A stretch of DNA of 64,000 bases from positions 124,001 through 188,000 of the forward strand of contig JANQQF010000039.1 in assembly GCA_028285035.1 (NCBI GenBank). The letters are read 5' to 3'. This DNA comes from Phycisphaerae bacterium. GTDB lineage: Bacteria > Chloroflexota > Anaerolineae > 4572-78 > J111. Position 1 is the stretch's first letter, and each line of letters starts with the position of its first letter. Positions 185-47,915 of this stretch are shown in pieces. Under the pieces are notes generated by a model. It did not search any database. It had not been told where the DNA came from and saw nothing but the letters and a program-made list of their open reading frames with translations. The position numbers and the translations under genes were made by a program.

Positions 185-1624
185 TCACCTCGGCAAATAT
201 ACCGCAAACGTCGTGCCGTGACCCAACTGGCTTGACACCTCGATGCGGCCGCCGTGGACCTGGGCCAGCCAGTGAGCGATGGCGAGGCCGAGACCGGCGC
301 CGCTGCCGCCGCTACCGTCGCTGGCTTGATGGGCGCGGGCTTTGTCGACGCGGTAGAAACGGTCAAAAAGATGGGGGATATTTTCGGCAGGGATGCCAGG
401 ACCGGTATCGCGGATTTCGATACAAACTTCTTCCGATTGCGCGGTGGCAATAATATCAACCTTGTCGTTGAAACGAGAGTACTTGATGGCATTGTCGATT
501 AAATTAAGGAACAAGCGGACCAGTTTATCTCGATCACCGATAAGGGGCAGGCTGTCCGGAGTATTCAGATTCAGGGTGACTTGTTTGGCCGCTGCCCGAC
601 TTTGCAAGTGGTCGGCCTGCTCATACAATAAATCAACCACATCGACGGTCCCCGTTTGAAACGGAATTTGGTTATTATCCGCGCGGGCCAAGAGAAATAG
701 TTCCTCAACCAATGCTGATAAACGATCAGCTGTTTGGTTCACCATTTCCAAGGTTTCTTGATACTCTTCAGGGCTACGGGACCGATTGAGGGCCACCTCG
801 ACATCTCCTTTGAGAATGGTCAACGGCGTTCGCATTTCGTGTGAGGCGTCGGCAATAAACCGCTTCTGTCGTTCAAACGCATCATCCAATCGCGCTAACA
901 TATCATCAAATGTCGCAGCCAAACGGCCCACCTCATCATTGGGCAAGTCCAGATTGAGCCGTTGATGTAAATGATCCGCACTGATCTCCTGCGCTGAGCG
1001 GGTAATCCGATCAATCGGGGCCAGAGCTCGACTGGCCAGGAACCAGCCACCGCCCCCCGCAGCAAAAAGGACAAAGGGCAAGCTAGCCCCAAAGAGAATG
1101 ATAAGCTGACGTTGTACATTTTGGATCGGCTCATAACTTTCCGCGACCTGGACAAAGCCAAGTAGGTTGCCTTCCAAAGTGACGGGCAACGTGTACGCAC
1201 GAATTGGCGTTGAATTAGCTAAGGTACCAAAACTTAGCTGAGCGCGGTTGGGGTTGAGAGTCGTTGTTTCGAAGGTCGCTCCACGAAAATCATTGGTATT
1301 AAATGTGCTTTGCCCCGATGAGTCAAGGATCTGCCAAAAAACGCCTTCTTCTGGGAGATAATTCAGGGTAAACTCAATGCCGTTGAGGCGGATTTTTCTG
1401 CCACCATATTCGCTCGACTCATTGTCTTCATAGCCCTCCTCCGACTCCTCAATTTCGCCAGCATTAAAGGCATCGACCATCTGTTTCGCCTCGCGCTGAA
1501 GCTGGCTATCCAGGCTCGCTGATAAGTTGCGGCTTAAGCCAATATAAACAATCACCCCAAAGATCAGCAAAATCAAGAGGAGAATGGCGGTATACCAGAG
1601 GGTTAAACGTAAGCGAATGTTCAT
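185..1624 (-). CDS. Two-component sensor histidine kinase (HAMP, HisKA, HATPase_c)
   Basis: Inner-membrane sensor kinase of 479 aa. A first membrane helix lies near residues 8-30, followed by an acidic periplasmic region of about 140 residues and a second helix near 175-200. Then come a HAMP linker, an H-box with the phospho-accepting His (DASHEMRTPL), an N-box (LNLIDNAIKY), a G1 box (DTGPGIP), an F box (FDRFYR) and a G2 box (GAGLGLAIA). All catalytic motifs are intact. The start overlaps the stop of the upstream response regulator by four bases (ATGA), so the two are translationally coupled and form a cognate pair. The signal sensed cannot be read from the sequence. Confidence 0.93.
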   Translation of the reverse strand: MNIRLRLTLWYTAILLLILLIFGVIVYIGLSRNLSASLDSQLQREAKQMVDAFNAGEIEESEEGYEDNESSEYGGRKIRLNGIEFTLNYLPEEGVFWQILDSSGQSTFNTNDFRGATFETTTLNPNRAQLSFGTLANSTPIRAYTLPVTLEGNLLGFVQVAESYEPIQNVQRQLIILFGASLPFVLFAAGGGGWFLASRALAPIDRITRSAQEISADHLHQRLNLDLPNDEVGRLAATFDDMLARLDDAFERQKRFIADASHEMRTPLTILKGDVEVALNRSRSPEEYQETLEMVNQTADRLSALVEELFLLARADNNQIPFQTGTVDVVDLLYEQADHLQSRAAAKQVTLNLNTPDSLPLIGDRDKLVRLFLNLIDNAIKYSRFNDKVDIIATAQSEEVCIEIRDTGPGIPAENIPHLFDRFYRVDKARAHQASDGSGGSGAGLGLAIAHWLAQVHGGRIEVSSQLGHGTTFAVYLPR

Positions 1625-2304
1625 TCTAGATCATCAATCTTGTAGCCAATTCCCCGGACCGTGTGAATTAAAGCAGGTTCACCGTTGGCTTCTAATTTTT
1701 GGCGTAAATGACGAATGTAAACATCGACCACATTAGAGGCCCCGTAGTAATCATAACCCCAGATATGCTCGCGGATCAAGGTACGGCTGAGCGGGCGGCG
1801 GGGATGACGAAGCAGATATTCCAAAAGAGCGTACTCTTTACTAGTTAACTCAATATCGCGTCCCCCTCGTTTGGCCTGATGGGTGACCGTGTCCAATTCT
1901 AAATCACCGAGCGAGAGCAGGGTGGTGGGAGCGGCGGTACTCACAGTTGTCCGACGAGTTAAGGCGCGTAACCGGGCGAGCAATTCTTTGAAGGCAAAAG
2001 GTTTGGGCAAATAATCATCGGCCCCAGCATCCAAACCAGTCACACGATCATCCACCTCATCACGGGCGGTGAGCATCAACACGGGAGTGCTCACGCCACG
2101 TTCCCGCATAATCCGGCAAACCTCAAAGCCAGTCAACCCAGGTAGCATCACATCAAGCAGGATCACATCATACTCAGCCCCAGCCACCCAATCCAGCGCC
2201 GATGTACCATCCCCGACAACATCGACAGCATAGCTTTCTTCTTCGAGCCCTTTCTTAAGAAAGCCCGCAATTCGTTCTTCATCTTCAACAATTAATACTC
2301 GCAT
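1621..2304 (-). CDS. OmpR/PhoB-family response regulator
   Basis: A 227-aa DNA-binding response regulator. The receiver domain (about 1-115) has the acidic pocket near the N-terminus (VEDEE), the phospho-acceptor Asp in VILLDVMLPG and the conserved Lys in LPKPF. The C-terminal winged helix (about 130-225) ends with the typical VRGIGYKID. It is the first gene of the pair with the kinase at 185-1624 and would be phosphorylated by it. Targets are unknown; autoregulation from the 2305-2400 region is plausible but no operator is recognised. Confidence 0.95.
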   Translation of the reverse strand: MRVLIVEDEERIAGFLKKGLEEESYAVDVVGDGTSALDWVAGAEYDVILLDVMLPGLTGFEVCRIMRERGVSTPVLMLTARDEVDDRVTGLDAGADDYLPKPFAFKELLARLRALTRRTTVSTAAPTTLLSLGDLELDTVTHQAKRGGRDIELTSKEYALLEYLLRHPRRPLSRTLIREHIWGYDYYGASNVVDVYIRHLRQKLEANGEPALIHTVRGIGYKIDDLE

Positions 2305-2417
2305 CTTGTTTTCCTTTGACAGGTATGGTTAGTGAGTCAGGTCCACACTCCAATCATACCTGAGTCTGGTGAAAAACGCATGAAATTTTAATGAAAAAAT
2401 TTTCATAATTCATTACC

Positions 2418-2524
2418 GTTAGGAGTTACGCAGTTCTGCGAGATAGCTGGTGTGACGCTCTCTATCACGCCCTTCAGACCAATGCTCTGCGTTGGTCCGA
2501 GTGCCTAAGTGCGTAACTCCTAAC
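2418..2524. repeat. MITE-like element with 15-bp perfect terminal inverted repeats
   Basis: The ends GTTAGGAGTTACGCA (2418-2432) and TGCGTAACTCCTAAC (2510-2524) are exact reverse complements and enclose about 77 bases with no ORF. The size and end type fit a non-autonomous miniature transposable element. No clear target-site duplication is visible. It occupies most of the gap 2305-2614; the rest is AT-rich and must hold the divergent promoters of the flanking genes. Confidence 0.6.
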
Positions 2525-2617
2525 TACGTTCCTTATTATCCTAATTAGGGGTTTATTCTATCGTGTGCTAATCTATCGCTTGAAAATAATGTTTTTTATG
2601 ACTGATGGAGAAGGATG

Positions 2618-3940
2618 ATGAGGAAAGATAAACCACGCTTACCAGATAATGATCTGGTTTTGGTTGTGAAAAACCCGCAAATTGCTGGTGCTTTGGGGGA
2701 GCTTTTAAGCGTGATTGGACAAGAGGGAGGAATGGTCGGTGACATCGAAACCCAATTCATTGGGACGGATCACACCTTCCGCGAACTTACAGTTTCGGTT
2801 TACAACGCCGAGCACTTAGATCATATCTTACAAACAGTTCGAGTAAAAACAAACGCACAAATTTTGGAGATCAAGGATTTGGTCTTTGATCGGCACGAAG
2901 GCGGCAAAATTCATAGCACGCGTCGCCAATCGATTGGGCAACTCCGCGATTTGCGGTACATCTATACCCCTGGCGTGGCCCGTGTCTGCCGAAAAATTCA
3001 TAAAGAGCCAGAACTAGCGGCACGATACACGAGCATTGGCAACAGTGTGGGGGTCTTTACTAACGGCACTCGAGTGCTAGGCTTGGGTAATATTGGTCCG
3101 GTAGCCAGTATGCCGGTGATGGAAGGGAAGGCGGTACTATATGATCAATTTGTCGGTATCAGTGCCACCCCCGTTTTGATTGATACTGAAGACCCTGACG
3201 AATTTATCGAGACCGTGGTTCGCGTGGCCCCCTCTTTTGGTGGAATTCATTTGGAAGACATTCAAATACCAGACTGTTTTCACATTGAAGACGAGTTGAT
3301 TCGTCTTTTGGATAAACCAGTGATGCACGACGATCAGCATGGAACAGCGACAGTATTGTTGGCAGCGGTATTGAGCGCACTCCGACACACTGGGCGTGAG
3401 GGTGATAACTCGATAAAATGTGCCCAAATTGGCTTGGGAGCCGCAGGTCTGGCCATCGCCAAAATTTTGATTGACTACGGTTATAACGTGACAGGTGTCG
3501 ATCTATTACCCGAGTCGCGACAACGTTTGCTTGATTATGGGGGGCAGACCGCTGATCTGAATGAGGCCGTTGCTGGGGCCGATGTGGTGATTGCGACTAC
3601 AGGTGTAGTCGGGTTGATCAAACCAGAGATGGTCCAGCCCAACCAAATCATCTTGGCGCTGTCCAACCCGGTGCCCGAAATTTTCCCCGAGGAGGCATTG
3701 GCGGCTGGGGCTGCCTTTGCTGCTGATGGCAAAAGCGTCAACAACGCCCTGGCCTTTCCAGGCCTATTCAAAGCCGCCCTTTTAGGAAAACAGCCAGCCA
3801 TCACAAGCGCAATGAAAATTGCTGCAGCCGAGGCCATTTCCAATTTGGCTGCAAATAACGAACTGGTGCCTAGTGTATTCCATCCTGATGTTCACGATCA
3901 GGTTATCCAAGCTGTGATGTCCACATTTGAGGAGGCATAG
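2618..3940 (+). CDS. ACT domain-containing NAD(P)-dependent malic enzyme
   Basis: Oxidative decarboxylation of malate to pyruvate. The N-terminal 85 residues form an ACT-like regulatory domain (begins near [10 protein letters not shown]), which in other enzymes binds small effectors. The malic-enzyme N domain follows with [28 protein letters not shown] and [10 protein letters not shown], then [16 protein letters not shown] and the NAD-binding motif [11 protein letters not shown]. All family signatures are intact. Two ATG codons are adjacent (2615, 2618). The GGAG at 2607-2610 is better spaced for the second, so that start is used. It is followed on the same strand by a 2-hydroxyacid dehydrogenase, so both act in C3/C4 acid metabolism. 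Confidence 0.92.
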
Positions 3941-15775: not shown

Positions 15776-18571
15776 ATGTTAAAACGATTGATATTGTTAT
15801 TTGGAATGCTAATTTTAGCATTCGGTTATGTTGCTGCGCCTAGTCAGGCCCAGGATGAGCCTCAGGGTGAGACTGGCTGGTCTTTCGAAATATTAGAGTC
15901 AGACGCAAATCATCTTTTACTGGAGCTGACTGTTCCCGCCTTCGACACTGAGGTCATTCAACAAGATGGAGTGACCTATCAGCGCCTTAACGTTGGCGAA
16001 GATTGGAGTGCTTGGGGCGAGGTTGGGCAACCCGAATTACCCCGTTATCACGTTCAAATCGGATTGCCTACTTACGGTGAGCCAGAAATCACGGTTTTGG
16101 AGTCTGAAAGCCAGCTTTATTCAGGCTACAACATTTATCCGAATCCGGACTTCATTGTCGGTGGCTCGGCTGATGCACCTGACATCGTTGATGTTTTTGC
16201 CATTGATGAAGCCACTTATAACACTGACACGGTCTTGCCAGGCCCTTTGTTTGAGGCAGCAGAGTTTGGCTTAATGCGCGATCAGGGACTATTTAATCTG
16301 CGACTGGCCCCCTTTCAATACAATCCTGTTCGTCAAGAATTAACCGTTATACAACGAATGCGCGTTCTCATTAACTTCCCCCAAAGCGGCATAATAATTA
16401 ACAGTGCACCGGCACCAACTCCTCCTACATTCCAAAAAATGTTTAGACAGTTCGTTGTCAATTACGACGATTTGCCTCAGTCACAAACCGCTCCCGCTTC
16501 TTCAGGTATTTCACTCAGCGGCTCTGTGGTTGAAGGTATCGGTGCCACCAATGCTACCTACATTATCATTTCCCACCCCAACTTCTATAATAAATCTCTC
16601 GACCTAGCCACTTACCGGGCTGGGCAGGGTGAAGATGTTGCTATCGTTAAAAGTACCGATATTTATGACGAATACAATAGCGGCACTAAGAGTGCAGAGG
16701 CGATTCGGGATTACCTAGTTGACGCCTATGCAAATTGGTCTACAAAGCCCGTGTATGTTGTGTTGATTGGCGATGGCGATGCAACTGCCCTGGAAACAGA
16801 TCCTAATAACTCAAATCTCATTACTGGATATGATCCAAGTGTATCTACTGACTTTATCCCGTCTCATTATGAGACCTTACTTGTATTTGGTCCAGCCCCT
16901 ATTGATTCTTGGTACGCCAAGATTCACGGTGATGACATTTACCCTGACTTGATTATTGGTCGTATTCCTGCCCGTAAATCGGCAGATGTGCAAACAGTTA
17001 TCGATAAAGTACAAGCCTACGAACAATCACCTGCCTCGGGCGATTGGACTCGTAAGGCCGTTCTTGTTGCAGATGACGCGGATCCAGGATTTGGTGAAGA
17101 TATGGATTATGTGGCTGATCTGCTACCAAGTAGTGTTACCCCAACAAAACTTTACTCTGGTGGTACCAATGTTCAGGACGTCGTGGGCCAAGGTGCTCTA
17201 TTGTTAGCCTATTCTGGTCATGGGAGTCAGGTTGGCTGGAGTTCGTGGAAAAATCACGGCAATATCTTTCAGCAGCATTATATTGATGACTTGGATAATG
17301 GTAACAAATTACCATTTATGACTGTGGCGAACTGTTCAAATGGCTACTTTGCTTATGCGGCGAAAGAGCGGGTATTAGCTGAAGAATTTTTACTTGTGCC
17401 TAATGAAGGTGGTATTGCTAGCTGGGCACCAGCCGCCTATTCATTCCCCAGTGTAAATACTGAAATTAACGAAGATATCCACGAAGCCTTATTTACCGAT
17501 GGTGATATTATCTTGGCTTCAGCAGCGACGACTGCCCGGATTTCATTCTATATAAATGATGGTCGTTTCCCGCTCAATTTATTTGAAGTATTTACCTTCT
17601 TTGGTGATCCAGCGGTTAAGTTGAGTATGCCACCAACCCTAACCCTAGGCGGACAAATATCGGATGCGACTGCTGTCACAGGAACTGATGTCACATATAC
17701 CTTAACCTACAATATCTCTGGGGCAGATCAAGCTCGAGATTTGACCTTGGTTAATACTTTACCAGATCACGTGACATTCCAATCGGCCTCTGTCGCCCCG
17801 TCTGCCATTGATGGGCAAAAATTAACCTGGAACTTAGGCACGGTAGCCAAAGGAACCTACCAAATTACAATCACGGCCACGGTGGCCAATGATGGTAGCT
17901 TGAGTAACGATGACATTCTATCCAACCTCGCTCAGTTAACCGATGCAACAGGTGGGGAGAAAGAAATTCAGGTTGATGCATCTGTCCTAACTACGGACGT
18001 TCCACCCGTCGCTAGTTACTACACATCTGCCCCAGATCAAGTAGGGCAAACAACAACATTCTATAGTCTGTCAGCAGGTTCCAATTTAACTTACGAATGG
18101 AATTTTGGAGATGGCACGATTGTAACTGGTGGGTCCACCATTAGCCACACTTATGCTGCCCAAGGAACTTACAATACAAGTCTCACTATAACTAACGGCG
18201 CAGGAAGTGACAGTGCAAGCCTTCCGGTTGAAATTCAGGAGGCTGGAGCAGAAATTGGCTCTCCTATCGCAAGTTTTACAAGTAATTCCCCAATAAAATT
18301 GGGTGAAACCACAGTCTTCATTAATACCAGTCAAGATGGCGGTGATGCGCCTGAGAATTTAGTGTATTCCTGGAATTTCGGAGATGGCTCAACAAGTAGT
18401 GAGAAGGATCCAATTCATATCTACACAACAGTAGGGGACTACACTGTTCGTCTAACCGTAACAAATTCAGCAACGTCTGCAAATAGCGACTCCGTCTCAA
18501 ATGTAGTTACTATCGAGTCGGCCCGAACAACGAATAATAGTATATACTTACCTCTGGTTATAAAACCCTAA
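15776..18571 (+). CDS. Secreted C25 (gingipain-type) cysteine protease with DUF11 and PKD domains
   Basis: A 931-aa exported protease. It has a signal peptide (1-25), a propeptide-like region to about 240, and a caspase-fold C25 domain (about 258-610). The catalytic His is His482 in YSGHGSQVG and the Cys is Cys520 in VANCSNGYF, the expected C25 dyad. A DUF11 domain (about 625-735) and two PKD domains follow, each with the WNFGDG motif. The protein ends with SIYLPLVIKP, an ending shared in type with the protein at 23102. It would degrade external proteins or process surface proteins. Expression is probably controlled by the direct-repeat box at 15693. Confidence 0.92.
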   Translation: MLKRLILLFGMLILAFGYVAAPSQAQDEPQGETGWSFEILESDANHLLLELTVPAFDTEVIQQDGVTYQRLNVGEDWSAWGEVGQPELPRYHVQIGLPTYGEPEITVLESESQLYSGYNIYPNPDFIVGGSADAPDIVDVFAIDEATYNTDTVLPGPLFEAAEFGLMRDQGLFNLRLAPFQYNPVRQELTVIQRMRVLINFPQSGIIINSAPAPTPPTFQKMFRQFVVNYDDLPQSQTAPASSGISLSGSVVEGIGATNATYIIISHPNFYNKSLDLATYRAGQGEDVAIVKSTDIYDEYNSGTKSAEAIRDYLVDAYANWSTKPVYVVLIGDGDATALETDPNNSNLITGYDPSVSTDFIPSHYETLLVFGPAPIDSWYAKIHGDDIYPDLIIGRIPARKSADVQTVIDKVQAYEQSPASGDWTRKAVLVADDADPGFGEDMDYVADLLPSSVTPTKLYSGGTNVQDVVGQGALLLAYSGHGSQVGWSSWKNHGNIFQQHYIDDLDNGNKLPFMTVANCSNGYFAYAAKERVLAEEFLLVPNEGGIASWAPAAYSFPSVNTEINEDIHEALFTDGDIILASAATTARISFYINDGRFPLNLFEVFTFFGDPAVKLSMPPTLTLGGQISDATAVTGTDVTYTLTYNISGADQARDLTLVNTLPDHVTFQSASVAPSAIDGQKLTWNLGTVAKGTYQITITATVANDGSLSNDDILSNLAQLTDATGGEKEIQVDASVLTTDVPPVASYYTSAPDQVGQTTTFYSLSAGSNLTYEWNFGDGTIVTGGSTISHTYAAQGTYNTSLTITNGAGSDSASLPVEIQEAGAEIGSPIASFTSNSPIKLGETTVFINTSQDGGDAPENLVYSWNFGDGSTSSEKDPIHIYTTVGDYTVRLTVTNSATSANSDSVSNVVTIESARTTNNSIYLPLVIKP

Positions 18572-38149: not shown

Positions 38150-38836
38150 TTAAATCAAACCTCGTAGCCAAGTAAACCAAAAGGCAAAGCCCAGCATACC
38201 AACCGCGCAAAAAAGCCACAAGGCCGCCCATAGACGAGGGGTACAGCCAGCCAAATCCGCCATCTGACTAGCATCATCATCACCATCAATGTTACGCGAC
38301 AAAGAAATCAAATGTCGAATAGTGGCTACCCCACCTTGAAGAGCCAAAAAATTAAGGAGAAATATGGAGATGAGCACGGGAGTCAGCCAGGCAACTCCAA
38401 TAAAAATGCTACCAAAGCCAAGACCAATCAAGGTCACTAACGGAGAACGTACCCCATAAAGTAGCACGACTAAAATCGAGAAACTACCAATCAAGGTGAG
38501 GGTGTAAGGTGCAAAGTCTGGGAGACTACTAAGAATCATCAGGGTCGCACTAAAGAGAGCGGTGCCAAGATAACCGGCGATGTTAATCAGGGCATTATCC
38601 CCGCCTCGCGTCCGGGCAAAGCCTCCGCCCCCCGCCACCAGAGAAATCTCGACGATGTGACCGTTGGTTAGGCCAGCTGCCAAAATATGTCCCACTTCAT
38701 GAATCATTGTGTAGAACATATCAAAGGGACGCCATAAAACTGGTACCAAATTCACCACTAATATCATCGTGATCACTGCACTGACAATCAAAATCGCTTG
38801 TAGGGAGTTTTGTGGTGTAACAAGTATCTCTAGCAC
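38150..38836 (-). CDS. M50B-like membrane metallopeptidase (copy B)
   Basis: A 228-aa polytopic protein with HExxH in MIHEVGHILAAGLTNG near residue 46 and a following Gly-rich loop (GGGGFARTRGG). It has the same overall plan as the protein at 36371, including the helix-GYLG(T/V)A(L/V)F motif after the active site, so the two are paralogues. It lies 118 bases after the VWA-SIR2 gene on the same strand and may be expressed with it. Confidence 0.82.
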   Translation of the reverse strand: MLEILVTPQNSLQAILIVSAVITMILVVNLVPVLWRPFDMFYTMIHEVGHILAAGLTNGHIVEISLVAGGGGFARTRGGDNALINIAGYLGTALFSATLMILSSLPDFAPYTLTLIGSFSILVVLLYGVRSPLVTLIGLGFGSIFIGVAWLTPVLISIFLLNFLALQGGVATIRHLISLSRNIDGDDDASQMADLAGCTPRLWAALWLFCAVGMLGFAFWFTWLRGLI

Positions 38837-38954: not shown

Positions 38955-41804
38955 TTAGGACAACTTTGACAAAGCCTGATGAAGGGCCACAAAAAATCGA
39001 TCAAATTGGCCAAATTCACCATCAATGTAGTTATTTTCGGCACTGCGTTCACGCAAAGACCGAACCAACGGAGCTTCAGCGGGAAGCGGAGCCTCATTCA
39101 CAAACCAAATCGCCCCGCCCTCTCGATCAATCGCTCGATTGAGATCATAGTCACGTGGCCCCGGTCCAATGACAATCAAATCACGGTTCATATATTCTCG
39201 TAAGATTCGCTCGTTTTTGCTGCCAACTTGAGAAATCTCGCTGGGGGTGAAGGCAAAATCTCGGGCCTCTACATCTCCGTGTAATTTCATCAATTTAACG
39301 GGTGGATCAACATTTTCTAATGTGGTCAAGGCCTCAAGGCTGGTTTGGGTATTACAAACAATGGTTTGGTAGGCAACCAAATTAGCTTGTAATTGTGTTT
39401 CTAAAAAGCGATCCAGGTTTGTGGTAAACATAATTTGCAGATAGCCCTGCTTGACCAAATCGGCTAAACGCGCATAGCCAATAGATGGCCCAACTTCATC
39501 AAAGTGTTTCTTTAGCAACGCATAGCGTTCCTGCGGGCTAAAACCGTCCAGTGTTCGATGAAATTCATCCAAATCGGTTGTTTGTGCCACAGCTTTGACA
39601 ACCTGTCGCATTGTTTTACTTCCCAACATCATCGAGGCTCCACTCCCCAAAACCAACACATAGGGAGGTTCTTTGCTTTCTTTACGAGAGTGCATCAAGG
39701 TCGCTAGCAAGGTTATATTATCTGGAATATCTGGATGCCGTCGACGCCACAAAAGCCACAGCATTAGCAACAAGAGCAGCAAGAGCAGGAAACTAAAGCA
39801 TGGCAAAAAGTAATTTGAACTTGGCAGATCTGTCACTGTTTCCCACATTGAAGGGGTTGGGGTGGGTGTAGATGTGGGGCTTGGGCTTGGCGTTGGTGAT
39901 GGCGTATCCGTGGGCACGACTTGGGCAACCTCAATAGGCGTCGAAGTAGGTGAAGCCGTTGGGCTTGGCGTTGATGTCGCGGTCGATGTTGGGCTGGATG
40001 TCGGTGATGGTGTAATTGTTGGCGTGGGCGTCGGCGACAGAACAACTTGGAAGACTAAGGGGGATGATTGATTATCAAACACCCGACCGCCCGGCAAGAT
40101 GGCTACTAATTTAGTTTGTACCGTGTAATCCCCCACCTCATCAATCGGTGTAAAGTTACCATTGTAAGTGACAACATTTTGATCTGTCGTTGAGGTAGTC
40201 ACATCATCTCGGCCCATCTCCACTGTTTCTACGGGTTCACCATCCTTACTTAAGGTGGCCGTCAACCGGATACCATCCAAAGGAATCGCGCCAGCCAAAT
40301 GGACCGCAGCTTCGATGGGGAGATCATCCCCAGGCAAATTCTCCTGCCCATCAAGCGGGCTAACCACATCAACCCAAGGTGCAGAAATCAAGGTAACCCA
40401 TTTGTGTTCAAAAATAGGGGTACCATTGGGCAAGATCGTCGAAAAAATTAGCGAGTATTCGCCCGTTTCCCCCAAAGCATCCAAACTGGCTGTGTAGGTT
40501 AGGCCATCTTTCGCCAATGGGACTTGACGACGAATATTCTCACCCTCAATTTCTACCTGAATACTTTGCACGGGGACATCGACCGGTTGTCCTTGCTCAT
40601 CGATGATGTTCGCTCGCAGATTCAGCGGTTGATCAACCGGGACAAACCCACTATGAGGCTGCTCAATATCAAGGGTTACATTAGGAAACACTAAGTAACT
40701 GAACTCGGCTTGCCCTTCTCCCTCCAATGTTACCTGCCAATTACCAACCCACGGCTCGGTGAAGGTGGCACGCCACACTTCATAATCAGGTCCACTCTGC
40801 CAACTCACCCCTTCATCTTCAGGGGTCAGCAGCTCCCCGCCCGCACTACCATCAGCCTGGGGTCGATAAATTTGGGCAACAAGATCAGGGTTTTCTTTCC
40901 CAGAGATAGTAAAAATGATTTGGTAATAGCTATCAAAAACTTGATAATCCAACACTTGGGTGCTGCGGAGTGCTAGAGGCGGCGTGGCTGGGGTGCATAA
41001 TAGTTCTGAGAAGATGTAGGTGCTGATGCCTTGCATCTCCTGCAATTTAGCTGCTTCTCGATAGTAGCCATTATTTCGCGAGGCCACACCTTGCCAAAAT
41101 TCACGATACAGCGTAATAAACTCGGGACTGGACGCTTCCACCAATTTATCCACGCCCATCCCAATCGTAAAGAGTGGCACGCCACTCACATTGCCACACA
41201 CCTCAACTGTCGACTCATACTGATCAAACTCGGCCAGCAAATCTCGGGTTTCAACCAGATACTCTTCAACAATATCCTGCCCTTTTTCTTCATCAACTTG
41301 GGAATTGGTCGGCTGCCCGTCAGAAATGAGAATGATCGCAGGTTTTCGTGTTGGATCGCCTTCCTCGTTAAGCAATGTCAGGGCAGCGTTGAGGGCTAGG
41401 TTAATATCCGTGTACTGCACATCTCCAATTGCTTCAAATTGCTGATGCACTGCCTCAAACCGGGTTTTGAGGGTGTCTGCTGCCTCGGGACTATCGACGA
41501 GGGTAAAAGGAATCACCTGAGGCTCAGTGCCAAAGGGGATGATCCCAACCCGATGGCCTGTCGTTGACGTTTCAGCGGCTAAAACATCGATAAAGAAGTT
41601 GACAGTATTGACCCGAATTCCTTCCGTATCGGTCTTATTCCACATCGTCTCTGATTCATCGACTAGAATGATAACATCAAGCCCAGGTAATATTCGATTT
41701 TGATTATCAGCATCGGATTGGCCGAGGGCCGGGTGGGGAAAACCAACAAATAAAAGCAGCAAAACAATATTAATTCCAATGTTTCGGATGAGGTCGGATT
41801 TCAT
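38955..41804 (-). CDS. Transmembrane VWA-domain protein with cytoplasmic SIR2-like domain
   Basis: A 949-aa membrane protein. It has a signal peptide (1-29), then an extracytoplasmic VWA domain (about 42-265) with an intact MIDAS (DESET at 49-53, SDGQ near 161), beta-rich Ig-like modules (about 290-590), and a Thr/Pro/Ser linker (590-652). A single helix (665-687) is followed by RRRH, which places the C-terminus inside. The cytoplasmic part (about 715-945) is SIR2-like, with GSGAS (720-724), TTNLD (794-798), KLHGD (840-844) and GPGPRDYD near 880. The Asn and His of NAD-consuming SIR2 enzymes are present. Such domains act as NADases in anti-phage systems or as deacylases. The protein would couple outside ligand binding to NAD chemistry inside; that role is inferred. 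The gene follows a receptor-like Ser/Thr kinase gene. Confidence 0.85.
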   Translation of the reverse strand: MKSDLIRNIGINIVLLLLFVGFPHPALGQSDADNQNRILPGLDVIILVDESETMWNKTDTEGIRVNTVNFFIDVLAAETSTTGHRVGIIPFGTEPQVIPFTLVDSPEAADTLKTRFEAVHQQFEAIGDVQYTDINLALNAALTLLNEEGDPTRKPAIILISDGQPTNSQVDEEKGQDIVEEYLVETRDLLAEFDQYESTVEVCGNVSGVPLFTIGMGVDKLVEASSPEFITLYREFWQGVASRNNGYYREAAKLQEMQGISTYIFSELLCTPATPPLALRSTQVLDYQVFDSYYQIIFTISGKENPDLVAQIYRPQADGSAGGELLTPEDEGVSWQSGPDYEVWRATFTEPWVGNWQVTLEGEGQAEFSYLVFPNVTLDIEQPHSGFVPVDQPLNLRANIIDEQGQPVDVPVQSIQVEIEGENIRRQVPLAKDGLTYTASLDALGETGEYSLIFSTILPNGTPIFEHKWVTLISAPWVDVVSPLDGQENLPGDDLPIEAAVHLAGAIPLDGIRLTATLSKDGEPVETVEMGRDDVTTSTTDQNVVTYNGNFTPIDEVGDYTVQTKLVAILPGGRVFDNQSSPLVFQVVLSPTPTPTITPSPTSSPTSTATSTPSPTASPTSTPIEVAQVVPTDTPSPTPSPSPTSTPTPTPSMWETVTDLPSSNYFLPCFSFLLLLLLLLMLWLLWRRRHPDIPDNITLLATLMHSRKESKEPPYVLVLGSGASMMLGSKTMRQVVKAVAQTTDLDEFHRTLDGFSPQERYALLKKHFDEVGPSIGYARLADLVKQGYLQIMFTTNLDRFLETQLQANLVAYQTIVCNTQTSLEALTTLENVDPPVKLMKLHGDVEARDFAFTPSEISQVGSKNERILREYMNRDLIVIGPGPRDYDLNRAIDREGGAIWFVNEAPLPAEAPLVRSLRERSAENNYIDGEFGQFDRFFVALHQALSKLS

Positions 41805-41887: not shown

Positions 41888-41944
41888 GGTTACAAAACTG
41901 TAGTTTCGTAATCAAATTGGTATCAAAACTTAGTTTTGATACCA
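41888..41944. repeat. Two tandem hairpins between the kinase and VWA-SIR2 genes
   Basis: A perfect 12-bp stem with a TTA loop (TGGTATCAAAAC at 41918-41929, GTTTTGATACCA at 41933-41944) and a neighbouring imperfect one (41888-41913). They may stabilise or attenuate the transcript that runs from the kinase into the VWA-SIR2 gene. No strong T-run is present on either side. Confidence 0.5.
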
Positions 41945-41958
41945 GATTCACTAAAATT

Positions 41959-44016
41959 CTAATTTCCAACATCAGACATAGCACAGCGAAAGCCAGCGAA
42001 ATTGTAGGTATATTCTGGGTTGATGTTGTAACGGAAGGCGGTTTGGGCATACAGCGCCTCAAAGAACCACGAACCACCTCGCAAAATTTTCTCCGAGCCT
42101 TCGGTCGGACCGAGTGGGTTATCCGACGAGCTACGACTATAATAGCCAGCCGAATACCAATCGGCCACCCATTCGCCAACATTGCCCGTCATATCAGCCA
42201 CACCGTATGGAGCATCGCCAGCCGGGGAAAAGCTTCCAACAGGCAAAGTATCTTGTTCCCCAAATTCGCTCGTATTGGCTTTCTGCGAGTCAAAGCTTGC
42301 CCCCCAAGCAAAGGCATTTTCACCAGCGAGATCAGGACCACGGGCGGCCTTTTCCCACTCGGCCTCTGTGGGCAATCGCTTACCTGCCCAAGTACAATAG
42401 GCCATCGCATCTGCCCAACTGACCAATACCACCGGATGATCCATTTTATCAGCTATATCGCTCTCAGGACCGTGGGGATGTTGCCACGTGGCCCCAGTCG
42501 CCTCTTGCAATGCCTCATCCTCAAGCACCCAGCCCCAGCCTTGCTGTTCGGCTGTAGTTTGATAATCTTCAGCCTGGACAAAGTCGGCAAACTGGGCATT
42601 GGTCACCTCATATTGATCCAGCCAGTAGGCATCCAGATACACTTGTCGGACGGGCTGTTCATCCTCACCTAAAGTATCGCTTCCCATTGTAAAGGGTCCC
42701 TCTGGGACAAAGGCCATCGGCCCCCCAGCCAATTCTTCAAGACGAATTTCAATTTCAGGTGTGCCCGGTGACACTTTCAGAGAAACTGGGGTAGGCGTCA
42801 GATCAGACATCGTGGGCTGAGTTATATCAGGCATTTCGGTTGGTGTCGCTGTTGGGGAGGTGAATTCAGCAGCAGAGTCTTCGGCCACAGGTTCAACAGA
42901 TGGGGCTAAATTTGGGGCTTCCAATGTCTCAGAAATATCCTCCATCAGCGCCGTTGCGAATGGGGCCGAGGTGCTCCACACAAGTAGGGCTGTCAAACCA
43001 ATCAAAATTAACAAAACTAAACTCAACGCCAACCTAGCCCAAGGAAGGCCACGCCGCTTCTTCTTGACGGGCTTAACCTGGGAGGGTGTCACGGTTGGGG
43101 CCATCATTGGGGTATGGATGGATTGGGTGTTGAAATCTGAAATCGGTTGGGCTGGAGGCAGAGCATTCATGAACGGGTGCGCGACAATATCTGGATCACT
43201 TTGGGCGTGGGCATTCCGTACGGCAATCACAAACTCTTCCATGCGCTGGTAACGATCTTCGGGCGATCGCTCCAAGGCCTGCATTATTACCTGCTCCATT
43301 TCCTCAGGTAGATCAGACCGAAGTTGACGCGGTGGAGTAATCGGATCAACCACCTTTTTCATTAAAACTGTCAAGGGATTATCCAAGCCAAAGGGCGTTT
43401 GCCCCGTTACAGCCTCGTAGAGCAATGTACCCAGTGCATAAATATCACTTCGCCCATCCACGGGTTGCCCCTGAGCTTGTTCTGGCGACATGTAGTAGGG
43501 GGTGCCCACACTGGTGCCGCTCATCGTAAGCTGTTGGCTTTCTTCCGCCGTTTTCACCAGGCCAAAATCAGATAGTAGGAACCAATTTTCCTCAGCCACC
43601 AAAATATTGGCGGGTTTGATATCGCGATGGACAATGCCTTGCTGGTGAGCATAAGCTAGCGCATCACCGACCTGACTAATGATATTCACGCTGTAGCCCA
43701 AATCTTGCGGCCAGCCCAAGCGTTGTTGGAGGGTGCCACGCTGGACATACTCCATCACCAAATATAAAATGTCATCCTGGCGACCATAATCAAAAATCGT
43801 CAGGATGTTGCGATGGCGGAGTTTGGCAATACTTTTGGCTTCTCGTTCAAAGCGGGCGATAAATTCGGGGCGTTTGGTGACATCAGCCGTCAAAATTTTA
43901 ATCGCAACATATCGATCCAGGGCCGACTGGTAGCCTTTGTAAACAGCCCCCATTCCGCCTTGACCGATTTGCTCTAAAATTTCATACTGACCGATAGTTG
44001 AATCTTTGATGTGCAT
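41959..44016 (-). CDS. Receptor-like Ser/Thr protein kinase with extracellular FGE/sulfatase-modifying-factor-like domain
   Basis: A 685-aa membrane protein. The cytoplasmic Hanks-type kinase (about 11-270) has the P-loop GQGGMGAVYKG, Lys40 in VAIKIL, HRDIKPANIL (130-139), DFG (150-152) and SPEQ, so it should be active. After a linker with a KKKRR stop signal comes one membrane helix (326-347), a Thr/Pro-rich stalk, and a C-terminal FGE-like domain (about 432-680) with FTMGSDT, YEVTNAQFADF, LPTEAEWEKAA, NVGEWVADW and RGGSWF. In bacteria this fold often binds ligands rather than making formylglycine. It is first in the minus-strand run leading to the VWA-SIR2 protein and the membrane proteases. 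Confidence 0.92.
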   Translation of the reverse strand: MHIKDSTIGQYEILEQIGQGGMGAVYKGYQSALDRYVAIKILTADVTKRPEFIARFEREAKSIAKLRHRNILTIFDYGRQDDILYLVMEYVQRGTLQQRLGWPQDLGYSVNIISQVGDALAYAHQQGIVHRDIKPANILVAEENWFLLSDFGLVKTAEESQQLTMSGTSVGTPYYMSPEQAQGQPVDGRSDIYALGTLLYEAVTGQTPFGLDNPLTVLMKKVVDPITPPRQLRSDLPEEMEQVIMQALERSPEDRYQRMEEFVIAVRNAHAQSDPDIVAHPFMNALPPAQPISDFNTQSIHTPMMAPTVTPSQVKPVKKKRRGLPWARLALSLVLLILIGLTALLVWSTSAPFATALMEDISETLEAPNLAPSVEPVAEDSAAEFTSPTATPTEMPDITQPTMSDLTPTPVSLKVSPGTPEIEIRLEELAGGPMAFVPEGPFTMGSDTLGEDEQPVRQVYLDAYWLDQYEVTNAQFADFVQAEDYQTTAEQQGWGWVLEDEALQEATGATWQHPHGPESDIADKMDHPVVLVSWADAMAYCTWAGKRLPTEAEWEKAARGPDLAGENAFAWGASFDSQKANTSEFGEQDTLPVGSFSPAGDAPYGVADMTGNVGEWVADWYSAGYYSRSSSDNPLGPTEGSEKILRGGSWFFEALYAQTAFRYNINPEYTYNFAGFRCAMSDVGN

Positions 44017-44363: not shown

Positions 44364-45224
44364 ATGTCCAACCATAAAAACTCCCTTTGGAAACTTTATA
44401 ACCGACCACAGCGGCCCGAGGCTTGGACCAAAGGCGGCACCTTGCCGTGGCACGAGCCAGCCTTTGCCGAACGAATGCTGCGGGAGCATTTGGATGATAG
44501 CCACGGTACGGCCTCGCGCACACAGGCTGAGCGTGCATTACAAATTGACTGGCTGTGGCACCACTTAGAATTGCAGACGAATAGCCATTTATTTGACATA
44601 ACCTGCGGTCCTGGGTTGTATGCGGTGGAATTCGCCAAACGGGGATGTCAGGTGACGGGCAATGATATTAGCCCCGTTTCTATCAGTTACGCGCGTGATT
44701 TAGCAAAGAGCGAGGGTGTTCCCGAAAAATGTCATTTTGTTGAGCAGGATATTCAGCAGATGGATTACACGGGGGCCAATTTTGATGCTGCCCTGCTGCT
44801 TTACGGCCAACTGGCCGTTTTCCCCAAAGACACAGCTCAAACCATTCTCAACACCATTTCTGACAGTCTTCGGTCTTGGGGACGACTATGTCTAGAGATG
44901 CTCAATCCCAACAAAATCGACAAAACCGATAGCACCTGGTGGTTCACTGACGACAGCGGCCTTTGGGGAGATACCCCCTTCCTCCACCTCGGTGAGCGCT
45001 TCTGGGACCCCACCACCCAAATCTCCACCGAACGTTACCAGATTCTCGATTTAGCGAGCGGCGGGATACGCGAAATCTTTTTGTCCGATCAATTGTACGA
45101 GCCTGGAACGATGACCACGATGTTGATGGAAGCTGGCTTCTCCCTGGTCACGATTTATCCAGCGTGGAAGGGAATATCGCTATATGATGCCGAGGAGTGG
45201 CTGGTGTATGTGGCGGAGAAGTGA
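44364..45224 (+). CDS. Class I SAM-dependent methyltransferase
   Basis: A 286-aa Rossmann-fold methyltransferase. Motif I (LFDITCGPGLYAVEFA) lies near residues 78-93, the acidic end of beta-2 is in VTGNDISPVSI, and FDAALLLYGQLAVF corresponds to motif IV. The N-terminal 75 residues are an accessory segment rich in Trp and His. The substrate is unknown. It stands alone, divergent from the receptor kinase, and is followed by the repeat-rich gene-free stretch. Confidence 0.85.
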   Translation: MSNHKNSLWKLYNRPQRPEAWTKGGTLPWHEPAFAERMLREHLDDSHGTASRTQAERALQIDWLWHHLELQTNSHLFDITCGPGLYAVEFAKRGCQVTGNDISPVSISYARDLAKSEGVPEKCHFVEQDIQQMDYTGANFDAALLLYGQLAVFPKDTAQTILNTISDSLRSWGRLCLEMLNPNKIDKTDSTWWFTDDSGLWGDTPFLHLGERFWDPTTQISTERYQILDLASGGIREIFLSDQLYEPGTMTTMLMEAGFSLVTIYPAWKGISLYDAEEWLVYVAEK

Positions 45225-45933: not shown

Positions 45934-46016
45934 CTGGGAGGGGCTGGGGGAGGTAGAAATTTTCGATAAAACATCCAGCCTACTACCTTACATACCACTA
46001 ACTTAACACCATTGCC
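45934..46016 (+). repeat. Direct repeat B, copy 1
   Basis: About 83 bases nearly identical to 46435-46517, exactly 501 bases away. The best block is CCAGCCTACTACCTTACATA, continuing to ATTGCC at 46011-46016. It ends exactly where homology of the truncated beta-propeller gene copy begins. Confidence 0.65.
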
Positions 46017-46182
46017 ACTGCTCCGGCAGCACACTCTTCGCCGCCACGGCTCCCCCGCTCGCCGCCAGCAGCTTCAGCAGCGTCCGCCGCGCGATCACTT
46101 GCTCCGCTTCTTGGTTTGGTTGGAAGGGCGGATCCTCAGTCAGATCTGATGAGGGTAAAAAATTGTGGTCCTGTTGGGTCAT
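46003..46182 (-). pseudogene. Truncated copy of the Tat-exported beta-propeller gene
   Basis: It encodes about 59 aa that match the N-terminus of the protein at 46665-47864 nearly residue for residue, through the twin-arginine signal (IARRTLLKLLAASGG) to VLPEQW, then reads QWC and stops in repeat DNA. The upstream leader and hairpin are also duplicated. The break coincides with the end of direct repeat B. It is a 5' fragment left by a partial duplication and could at most make an exported peptide. The ATG at 46182 follows GGAGG. Confidence 0.8.
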
Positions 46183-46232
46183 TTTTTCCTCCATATTGGG
46201 GGTGATAGTTTAAGGTCTCTAATAGTAGAGGC

Positions 46233-46264
46233 GAGGGAGATTTTGGCAAACCAAAATCTCCCTC
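46233..46264. repeat. Perfect 14-bp hairpin upstream of the gene fragment
   Basis: GAGGGAGATTTTGG, loop CAAA, CCAAAATCTCCCTC. The same hairpin stands upstream of the intact gene at 47916-47947, with the loop reversed and one base pair changed on both arms. Confidence 0.75.
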
Positions 46265-46316
46265 TATCTTTTCAGTAAAATCAGGTGTGGATATTCTAAA
46301 TGCCGCGTAGGGGCTC

Positions 46317-46389
46317 AGGCCATCGGGCTGAGTGTTCGACGACCGAACACCCCCTCACGCCGATAATGGAGGGATCACCACCGGCTCTA
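46317..46389 (+). repeat. Direct repeat A, copy 2
   Basis: Second copy of the segment at 45462-45570, lacking about 30 internal bases, and running straight into the palindromic element at 46385. Confidence 0.55.
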
Positions 46390-46457
46390 CCCCCCTCAAT
46401 CCCCCCTCCAAGGGGGGAGGCGACTCCCCTCCTTGGAGGAGGGGCTGGGAGAGGTAG
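46385..46457 (+). repeat. GC-rich palindromic repeat element, copy 3
   Basis: It starts CTCTACCCCCCTCAATCCCC like copy 1 and ends GAGGTAG. Internal arms (CTCCAAGGGGGGAG; CCTCCTTGGAGGAGG) form nested hairpins. It is joined on the right to direct repeat B copy 2 (46435-46517). The rest of the gap up to the next terminator has no gene. Confidence 0.6.
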
Positions 46458-46605
46458 AAATGTCCGTTAAACCCTCCAGCCTACTACCTTACATAACACT
46501 AACTTAACACCATTGCCCCGCAAAGGAGAGAACCTTTCCAAAAGAAAGAGGCGGGAGTAGAAATGATCGTTGCCCCGCCCCGCCCAATTTCACCACCCCA
46601 CAAAA

Positions 46606-46664: not shown

Positions 46665-47864
46665 CTAACAAGAAGGCACCGTCCCGATAAAGCTGCCAAG
46701 GGAAAAAGGAGTATTCCCCACCGTGATTTCAGTGGCAAAAGGAGTAACACCCCCCCCCATTATATCAAACACCAACACCGTGTTCCCACCAGAGTTCGTC
46801 ACATAGACCTTACTCCCATCCGGCGTCACTGCCACACCTTGAGCAGTAGTCATCATCACCGTCGGCAAAACAAGAGAAAAGCCCGTATCTATCGTCGTAT
46901 CAATCCAGGCCAGCCCGCCGGCGCCGGGACTAGGATTGACCGCCACATAGGCCGTGAGTCCATCCGGCGCGACTACCACGCCTTGAGGATCAGACGGCAT
47001 CATGATAGTGGCACTGACCGTATCCGTCGCCGTATCAATCACCGACACTGTGCCGTCACCGCTATTCGTCACATAGACTTTGCTTCCATCCGGCATTACC
47101 GCCACGCCTGCAGGAAAACTTCCCACTGGGATGGGCACGCCAATGACCGTATCTGTCGTCGTATCAATCACCGACACTGTGCCGTTACCAGCGTTCGCCA
47201 CATAGGCCTTCCCACCCGACGTCACAGCCAAGGTTAAAGGAGCATTTCCCACCGGGATGGGACTCCCACTGACCGTACCTGTCGTTGTATCAATCACCGA
47301 CACTGTGTTGTCAGCAGCGTTCGTGATATAAGCCAAGACTTTATTGACCGCAGCCACCGTAATCATAAAGCTTTGCGTATCGGTCAAACCGCCTGCATCT
47401 TCCACCTGCAACGTTATCGTGTGGCTTCCCACATCGCTCACACTGCTCGGCGTCCCACTCAAAGTGGCTGTCCCATCCCCATTGTCCGTCAAGGTCAACC
47501 ACATGGGCAGGGTCGTCGTCGCCGTGATTGTCCGGGTGTCGCCCGCATCGGGATCACTGGTCGTGATGTTGTAGCTGTAGGCGGTGTCACAATCAATGGT
47601 TGTAATTGGGAGGCTGGTGAAGCTTGGCGCACCACTCATCACCGGCGAAGTCTGGGCGTGGGCGGGCAGGTAGCCCACCTCAACCAACGGCGTGCCCCAC
47701 TGCTCCGGCAGCACACTCTTCGCCGCCACGGCTCCCCCGCTCGCCGCCAGCAGCTTCAGCAGCGTCCGCCGCGCGATCACCTTCTCCGTTTCCTGGTTTG
47801 GTTGGGAGGGTGGATCCTCAGTCAGATCCGATGAGGGTAAAAAATTGTGGTCATTTTGGCTCAT
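46665..47864 (-). CDS. Tat-exported YVTN-type beta-propeller protein
   Basis: About 399 aa. A twin-arginine signal (IARRTLLKLLAASGG, near residues 29-43) ends at a likely AHA site, followed by a putative cadherin/Ig-like domain (about 75-165) and five or more YVTN beta-propeller repeats (AYVANAGNGTVSVIDT, VYVTNSGDGTVSVIDT and similar). Such propellers serve as binding scaffolds; no enzymatic residues are evident. The ATG at 47864 is preferred because GGAG, which overlaps an upstream in-frame ATG at 47876, is then at the right distance. A 5' fragment of the same gene lies at 46003. Confidence 0.82.
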   Translation of the reverse strand: MSQNDHNFLPSSDLTEDPPSQPNQETEKVIARRTLLKLLAASGGAVAAKSVLPEQWGTPLVEVGYLPAHAQTSPVMSGAPSFTSLPITTIDCDTAYSYNITTSDPDAGDTRTITATTTLPMWLTLTDNGDGTATLSGTPSSVSDVGSHTITLQVEDAGGLTDTQSFMITVAAVNKVLAYITNAADNTVSVIDTTTGTVSGSPIPVGNAPLTLAVTSGGKAYVANAGNGTVSVIDTTTDTVIGVPIPVGSFPAGVAVMPDGSKVYVTNSGDGTVSVIDTATDTVSATIMMPSDPQGVVVAPDGLTAYVAVNPSPGAGGLAWIDTTIDTGFSLVLPTVMMTTAQGVAVTPDGSKVYVTNSGGNTVLVFDIMGGGVTPFATEITVGNTPFSLGSFIGTVPSC

Positions 47865-47915
47865 TTTTTTCTCCATATTAGGGGTGATATTTTAAGATTT
47901 CTAATAGTAGATACA

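Follow-up and report, generated by a model that had tools for sequence, protein, structure and literature searches.

The stretch of DNA considered here (the window) comprises 64,000 nucleotides of contig JANQQF010000039.1 (positions 124,001 to 188,000; assembly GCA_028285035.1). Its reverse strand carries an open reading frame (ORF) at 38955..41804 that begins with ATG and encodes a protein of 949 amino acids. From the N to the C terminus, this protein consists of a hydrophobic signal-type segment, a VWA domain, beta-sandwich modules, a Thr/Pro-rich stalk, one membrane helix and a SIR2 module. It is called the receptor here, after the function proposed for it.

The first 28 residues (41721..41804) resemble a signal peptide, with a hydrophobic core at residues 5-23. 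N-terminal segments were called from hydropathy rather than by a signal-peptide predictor, and the putative cleavage site after ALG was placed by eye. The VWA domain (residues 42-269; 40998..41681) is supported by conservation, by a structural model and by Pfam (VWA_2 at 44-164, E 5.6e-8; VWA at 43-172). It is of the type with a metal ion-dependent adhesion site (MIDAS), formed by D49, S51, T53, T132 and D162; the motif reads DESET, in which Thr replaces the last Ser of DxSxS. All-beta modules occupy residues 277-587 (40044..40976) and the stalk residues 588-666 (39807..40043). The second of the two hydrophobic segments in the protein is the membrane helix (residues 667-685; 39750..39806), which is followed by a run of Arg. 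The SIR2 module (residues 690-949; 38958..39737) ends the protein, and Pfam finds no further domain on this side of the helix. Its motifs are GSGAS (720-724), TTNLD (794-798) and KLHGD (840-844), with the catalytic residues N796 at 39417-39419 and H842 at 39279-39281.

SIR2_2 (PF13289) matches residues 791-893 (E 1.7e-6) with 28.7 bits against a gathering cut-off of 24.5, and both VWA matches are likewise above cut-off. The NCBIfam scan gave no match for the receptor. PADLOC matches are confined to the SIR2 part (PDC-S65 and SIR2-pAgo types; ThsA at E 0.05) and are not specific. An earlier note, made by reading the sequence, had described the signal peptide, the intact MIDAS, the Thr/Pro linker, the single helix with a basic inner flank and the three SIR2 motifs, all of which are borne out by Pfam, hydropathy, charge and the sequence itself. 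The SIR2-like C-terminal part that it named is also confirmed, but starts nearer residue 694 than residue 710.

A SIR2 fold had been set beforehand as the test of this assignment. AlphaFold models residues 690-949 as a confident SIR2 fold (predicted local distance difference test (pLDDT) 94, predicted template modelling score (pTM) 0.92), and this Rossmann fold, together with the catalytic Asn and His, is what defines SIR2_2. The best fold matches of the modelled module are the defence NADases SPARSA and ThsA. In the model of residues 30-600 (pLDDT 85, pTM 0.80), a single alpha/beta VWA fold precedes the all-beta modules, and Foldseek matches this model to adhesin, fibronectin-III/Ig-type and VWA structures.

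The same domain order recurs elsewhere. Searches with residues 690-949 and 35-600 returned 68 proteins (52 of the same type) and 76 proteins, respectively, and 57 of the 92 pooled proteins have a VWA motif, a membrane helix and a SIR2 motif in this order (the window protein is included in the 68 and the 57). An N-terminal hydrophobic segment is present in 51 of these 57. In 65 VWA-type proteins that have a helix, 0-1 Lys or Arg precede it within 15 residues and 3-8 follow it within 15 residues; the positive-inside rule therefore places the SIR2 side in the cytoplasm. When 67 proteins, again including the window protein, were aligned, D49, S51 and T132 of the MIDAS proved to be kept in 60 of 60 relatives that cover the site and D162 in 61 of 61; at position 53, 59 have Thr and one has Ser. 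Of 65 relatives covering the SIR2 Asn, 64 retain it (P0079 has Asp), and all 64 that cover the His retain that residue (the stretch is missing from P0069), so the pair is not lost in most homologues. Neither site is occupied in P0070 or P0080.

SIR2 modules of the VWA type form one branch with support 100/100 in a tree built from 111 of 163 modules. The 41 rows of this branch include P0037, whose MIDAS reads DESG rather than DESE; 56 fusions carry DESE, and 57 are reached once P0037 is counted. By a similar measure, no membrane helix was found at the 33 loci of other relatives of this SIR2 domain, several of which have ORFs cut by the locus ends and nine of which lack the Asn motif. Since the membrane-bound form recurs as one supported branch and its relatives have no helix, it looks like a single, long-kept and unusual joining.

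Relatives from the same SIR2 subfamily, at 36-44% identity, reside on proteins with CHAT-TPR (such as P0053 and P0057), AAA/STAND (P0058 and P0059), caspase-TPR (P0060), TPR-EAD7 (P0061), amidase (P0063) and bDLD1-TPR-FHA (P0064) architectures. A later search added TIR (P0113) and PF13365, which we take to be trypsin-like, as fusion partners. A fusion similar to those with PF13365, a SIR2 module ahead of an apparent trypsin-like protease, is encoded by the ORF at 1528-2904(+) of locus L048. P0064 may be inactive because Gly replaces its catalytic Asn; this protein, P0079 and P0069 are either inactive copies or assembly faults. The partner domains of this SIR2 subfamily are components of conflict systems described in the literature (PMC7159879, PMC8195603).

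The ectodomain also exists in a split sister version. Nine relatives at 40-42% identity lack SIR2 (P0083-P0090 and P0092; P0083 is a partial record and P0088 is the protein encoded at G049:C52). A C-terminal tail of about 55 amino acids ends seven of these nine and is absent from all 56 VWA-SIR2 fusions. In 35 proteins that lack VWA, the same tail follows SIR2 towards the C terminus; this number is uninformative on frequency because the query itself bore the tail. A direct comparison of two tails gave 44% identity across 62 residues, with an E value of 2e-15 for this one pair. Examples of the tail are residues 307-373 of the ORF at 1222-2343(-) in locus L045 and residues 679-747 of P0084. One genome, G049, encodes a VWA protein with helix and tail together with a tailed SIR2 protein. 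By eye, the tail can also be read on AAA/STAND, CHAT-TPR, TIR-FGE and kinase proteins, so it is a general adaptor and is no proof that VWA and SIR2 proteins pair. It has no Pfam match above cut-off and is possibly an undescribed effector-associated domain (EAD) of helical structure. A single chain, P0113, has both SIR2 and TIR, each a domain of the NAD-cleaving type, along with the adaptor tail. Taken together, the fused and split forms suggest that the ectodomain serves to bring SIR2 to the membrane in response to an external cue.

Directly upstream of the receptor gene, at 41959..44016 on the same strand, Pfam identifies a protein of 685 amino acids with a Ser/Thr kinase domain, a membrane helix and an FGE-sulfatase-like ectodomain. 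An orthologue of this kinase occupies the same position and strand in all four contexts where that side is sequenced: the window and genomes G001 (which holds locus L001), G049 and G212. In G013 the contig starts at the receptor gene, and this genome stands outside the count. The four proteins are 685-700 amino acids long, and the copies from G001, G049 and G212 are 52-54% identical to that of the window. By ORF coordinates the genes are separated by 154, 48, 5 and 86 bases in the window, G001, G049 and G212. Each genome has 20-41 matches to the kinase at E 1e-40, but in G001, G049 and G212 the neighbour gene clearly outscores the others. Within the order of G001, matches above 360 bits occur only in the two receptor-bearing genomes, and the best elsewhere reaches 341 bits at 40% identity. 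Because the top matches track the receptor genomes and adjoin the receptor, the two genes are kept together. The earlier note treated the receptor as standing alone; a membrane kinase is in fact its conserved neighbour, and a split sister form with an adaptor tail exists.

The HRD and DFG motifs are kept in the four aligned kinases, and PADLOC matches to this gene cover mainly the kinase domain. The FGE part ends with RGGSW.F in these proteins, without the Cys pair that active FGE enzymes carry. It is therefore more likely a binding domain, perhaps a sensor, than an enzyme. In the window the FGE-like ectodomain lies at 41980-42717 and seems to be without the cysteines of the active enzymes.

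A consensus scan places a 12-pair hairpin in the 154-base gap (41918..41944, reverse strand), overlapping a promoter-like match at 41897-41926. This hairpin is a candidate terminator, attenuator or regulatory site, and together with the promoter-like match it means that a single kinase-receptor transcript is not assured. Two other Pfam-assigned neighbours are each found nearby in three of the four contexts: an M50B-like membrane peptidase downstream (38150..38836, reverse strand) and a divergent methyltransferase (44364..45224, forward strand). Hypermutation of the partner FGE domain by a diversity-generating retroelement (DGR) was considered and rejected. No repeat of at least 40 bases is listed at the kinase gene (region 30000-56000), and no reverse transcriptase is present among the 36 of 41 window ORFs covered by the scans for defence or partner genes. 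Repeats at 45937-46517 and 47697-47911 of the window are 80 nucleotides (two copies, 91%) and 215 nucleotides long (two copies, 93%); the second copy of the longer one reaches into the start of the gene at 46665-47876. In G049 the kinase-receptor pair is preceded, at a distance of about 2.4 kb, by an ORF that reads as an ordinary sirtuin (L033, 3622-4392(+)). A C25-family peptidase with PKD domains is encoded at 15776-18571 of the window.

The receptor is rare in sampled genomes, though it is found in tens of protein clusters. In a sample of 396 genomes from the class to which G001 belongs, four contain full-length relatives. A full-length profile passes E 1e-3 in 185 of these genomes, with at most two candidates scored per genome, but many listed rows cover just the Thr/Pro stalk or the VWA stretch and only the four full-length cases were counted. 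Full-length relatives are present in two of 25 genomes from the order of G001, in both genomes from the order of G049, and in one of 400 genomes (again G001) in a sample of the phylum. Where source names are given for full-length relatives (P0047, P0052 and P0071), they read Anaerolineae. The window itself probably derives from a member of the Chloroflexota. Spread on mobile elements was rejected: there is no plasmid match, and the single match in phage records is limited to the SIR2 part at 24% identity.

Our preferred reading, of moderate confidence, is that the protein is a receptor at the cell surface that activates an NADase tethered to it and is likely gated by the neighbouring kinase. 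The stalk would keep the VWA and beta-sandwich ectodomain away from the membrane; the ectodomain would bind a protein or surface ligand via the metal site, and binding would cause the cytoplasmic SIR2 domains to cluster. The clustered domains would hydrolyse NAD+ or make an NAD-derived signal, such that the cell is stopped or killed. The kinase would serve as a second surface sensor, probably gating the response by phosphorylation. A more tentative extension is a bacterial death-receptor system, in which the ectodomain is either fused to a SIR2 executioner or ends in an adaptor that recruits an NADase like-with-like, and in which the kinase sets the threshold. In the split form the adaptor is one that soluble SIR2 proteins likewise have at their end and that one SIR2-TIR protein contains; the recruitment would parallel that of caspase by Fas through FADD. 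The interpretation offered in the earlier note is, as a whole, partly supported.

Other readings draw on the same observations. Matches of the ectodomain to adhesins and VWA receptors would also suit a receptor by which filaments or cells make contact, adhere or recognise self, with SIR2 giving a sublethal NAD-derived signal or a local drop in NAD instead of anti-phage immunity. The chromosome-type setting, the lack of plasmid matches and the absence of defence genes among the scanned window ORFs are in keeping with such a role. However, this SIR2 subfamily otherwise travels with suicide-type domains, and we judge a contact receptor rather unlikely. A membrane NAD-dependent protein deacylase, perhaps acting on the partner kinase, is improbable. 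Sirtuin deacylases need a zinc ribbon of four Cys, and no CxxC pair is present in any of the 52 SIR2 modules examined; furthermore, of 12 Protein Data Bank sequences found by the SIR2 profile, 11 are defence-type SIR2 chains and one is a marginal deoxyhypusine synthase. Of the two activities named in the earlier note, NAD hydrolysis and deacylation, the lack of zinc-ribbon cysteines makes the second look less probable.

The few relatives without Asn or His might instead point to a non-catalytic sensor of NAD or ADP-ribose that signals outward to the ectodomain; regulation of VWA domains from the inside, known from integrins, would fit as well. Near-invariance of both catalytic residues in the aligned relatives makes this doubtful. 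Intramembrane proteolysis, in which the adjoining M50B-like peptidase cuts the helix and frees SIR2, would fit the close spacing of the two genes (118 bases in the window and 101 in G001). Yet the peptidase gene is not found beside the receptor in G049, it lies about 1.5 kb away behind another ORF in G212, and PF13398 proteins are not all proteases, which leaves this route little probability.

Known SIR2 NADase effectors such as SPARSA, Thoeris ThsA, KomC, DSR2, HerA-SIR2 and Avs5 are cytosolic and are triggered inside the cell. They have the SIR2 fold and the Asn/His motif in common with the receptor and are among its best fold matches. The receptor differs from them in carrying its module on a single-pass helix with an ectodomain. 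In ThsA, SIR2 is followed by SLOG and a ThsB TIR gene is nearby, and SPARSA combines an APAZ domain with a short pAgo gene; here SIR2 ends the protein, and neither TIR nor pAgo is present among the scanned window ORFs. These ORFs also include no MoxR AAA+ gene of the vWA-MoxR ternary conflict systems, which use a co-chaperone VWA domain, whereas that of the receptor is extracellular. Those SIR2 and TIR NADases of bacterial immunity that have been characterised respond, to our knowledge, to intracellular signals.

A link to the EAD and bacterial Death-like conflict systems of multicellular prokaryotes (PMC7159879, PMC8195603) is that the SIR2 subfamily was found here with bDLD1, EAD7, caspase, CHAT and STAND. 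Pfam detects no EAD or bDLD on the receptor itself; such domains are present on relatives of its SIR2 module. According to PMC8195603, SIR2 is one of 13 effector domains of an EAD10-linked system, and one component class has extracellular domains and transmembrane helices. The partner kinase likewise recalls the conflict systems with C-lectin/FGE sensors diversified by DGRs, some of which are predicted in PMC10907252 to be periplasmic or on the surface. Unlike those sensors, the partner gene has no template-variable repeat pair in the repeat listing. Surface sensors are thus predicted for related conflict systems, but their direct joining to a SIR2 enzyme was not found in the literature searched.

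A full-text literature search that covered few subscription papers or bioRxiv preprints returned no published description of a VWA-SIR2 or membrane-anchored SIR2 receptor, in agreement with the earlier note. The parts are of known kinds, the VWA-SIR2 joining appears new to us, and the system would represent a new class if receptor function were shown. The SIR2 part, small and modelled with confidence, can be tested directly. By analogy, the findings tentatively suggest a bacterial counterpart of an animal death receptor, with a SIR2 module resembling enzymes that halt phage-infected cells through destruction of NAD. Such a counterpart would constitute an extrinsic, death-receptor-like route in bacteria; it would be relevant to the detection of threats by filamentous or aggregating bacteria before these threats enter, and to parallels with the logic of death receptors in animals. 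There is no sequence relation to metazoan death receptors (TNFR1 and Fas) with their Death-domain adaptors, and the bacterial adaptor is an unnamed helical hairpin. The logic alone is alike: an ectodomain bears either an adaptor that is common to soluble effectors or the effector itself.
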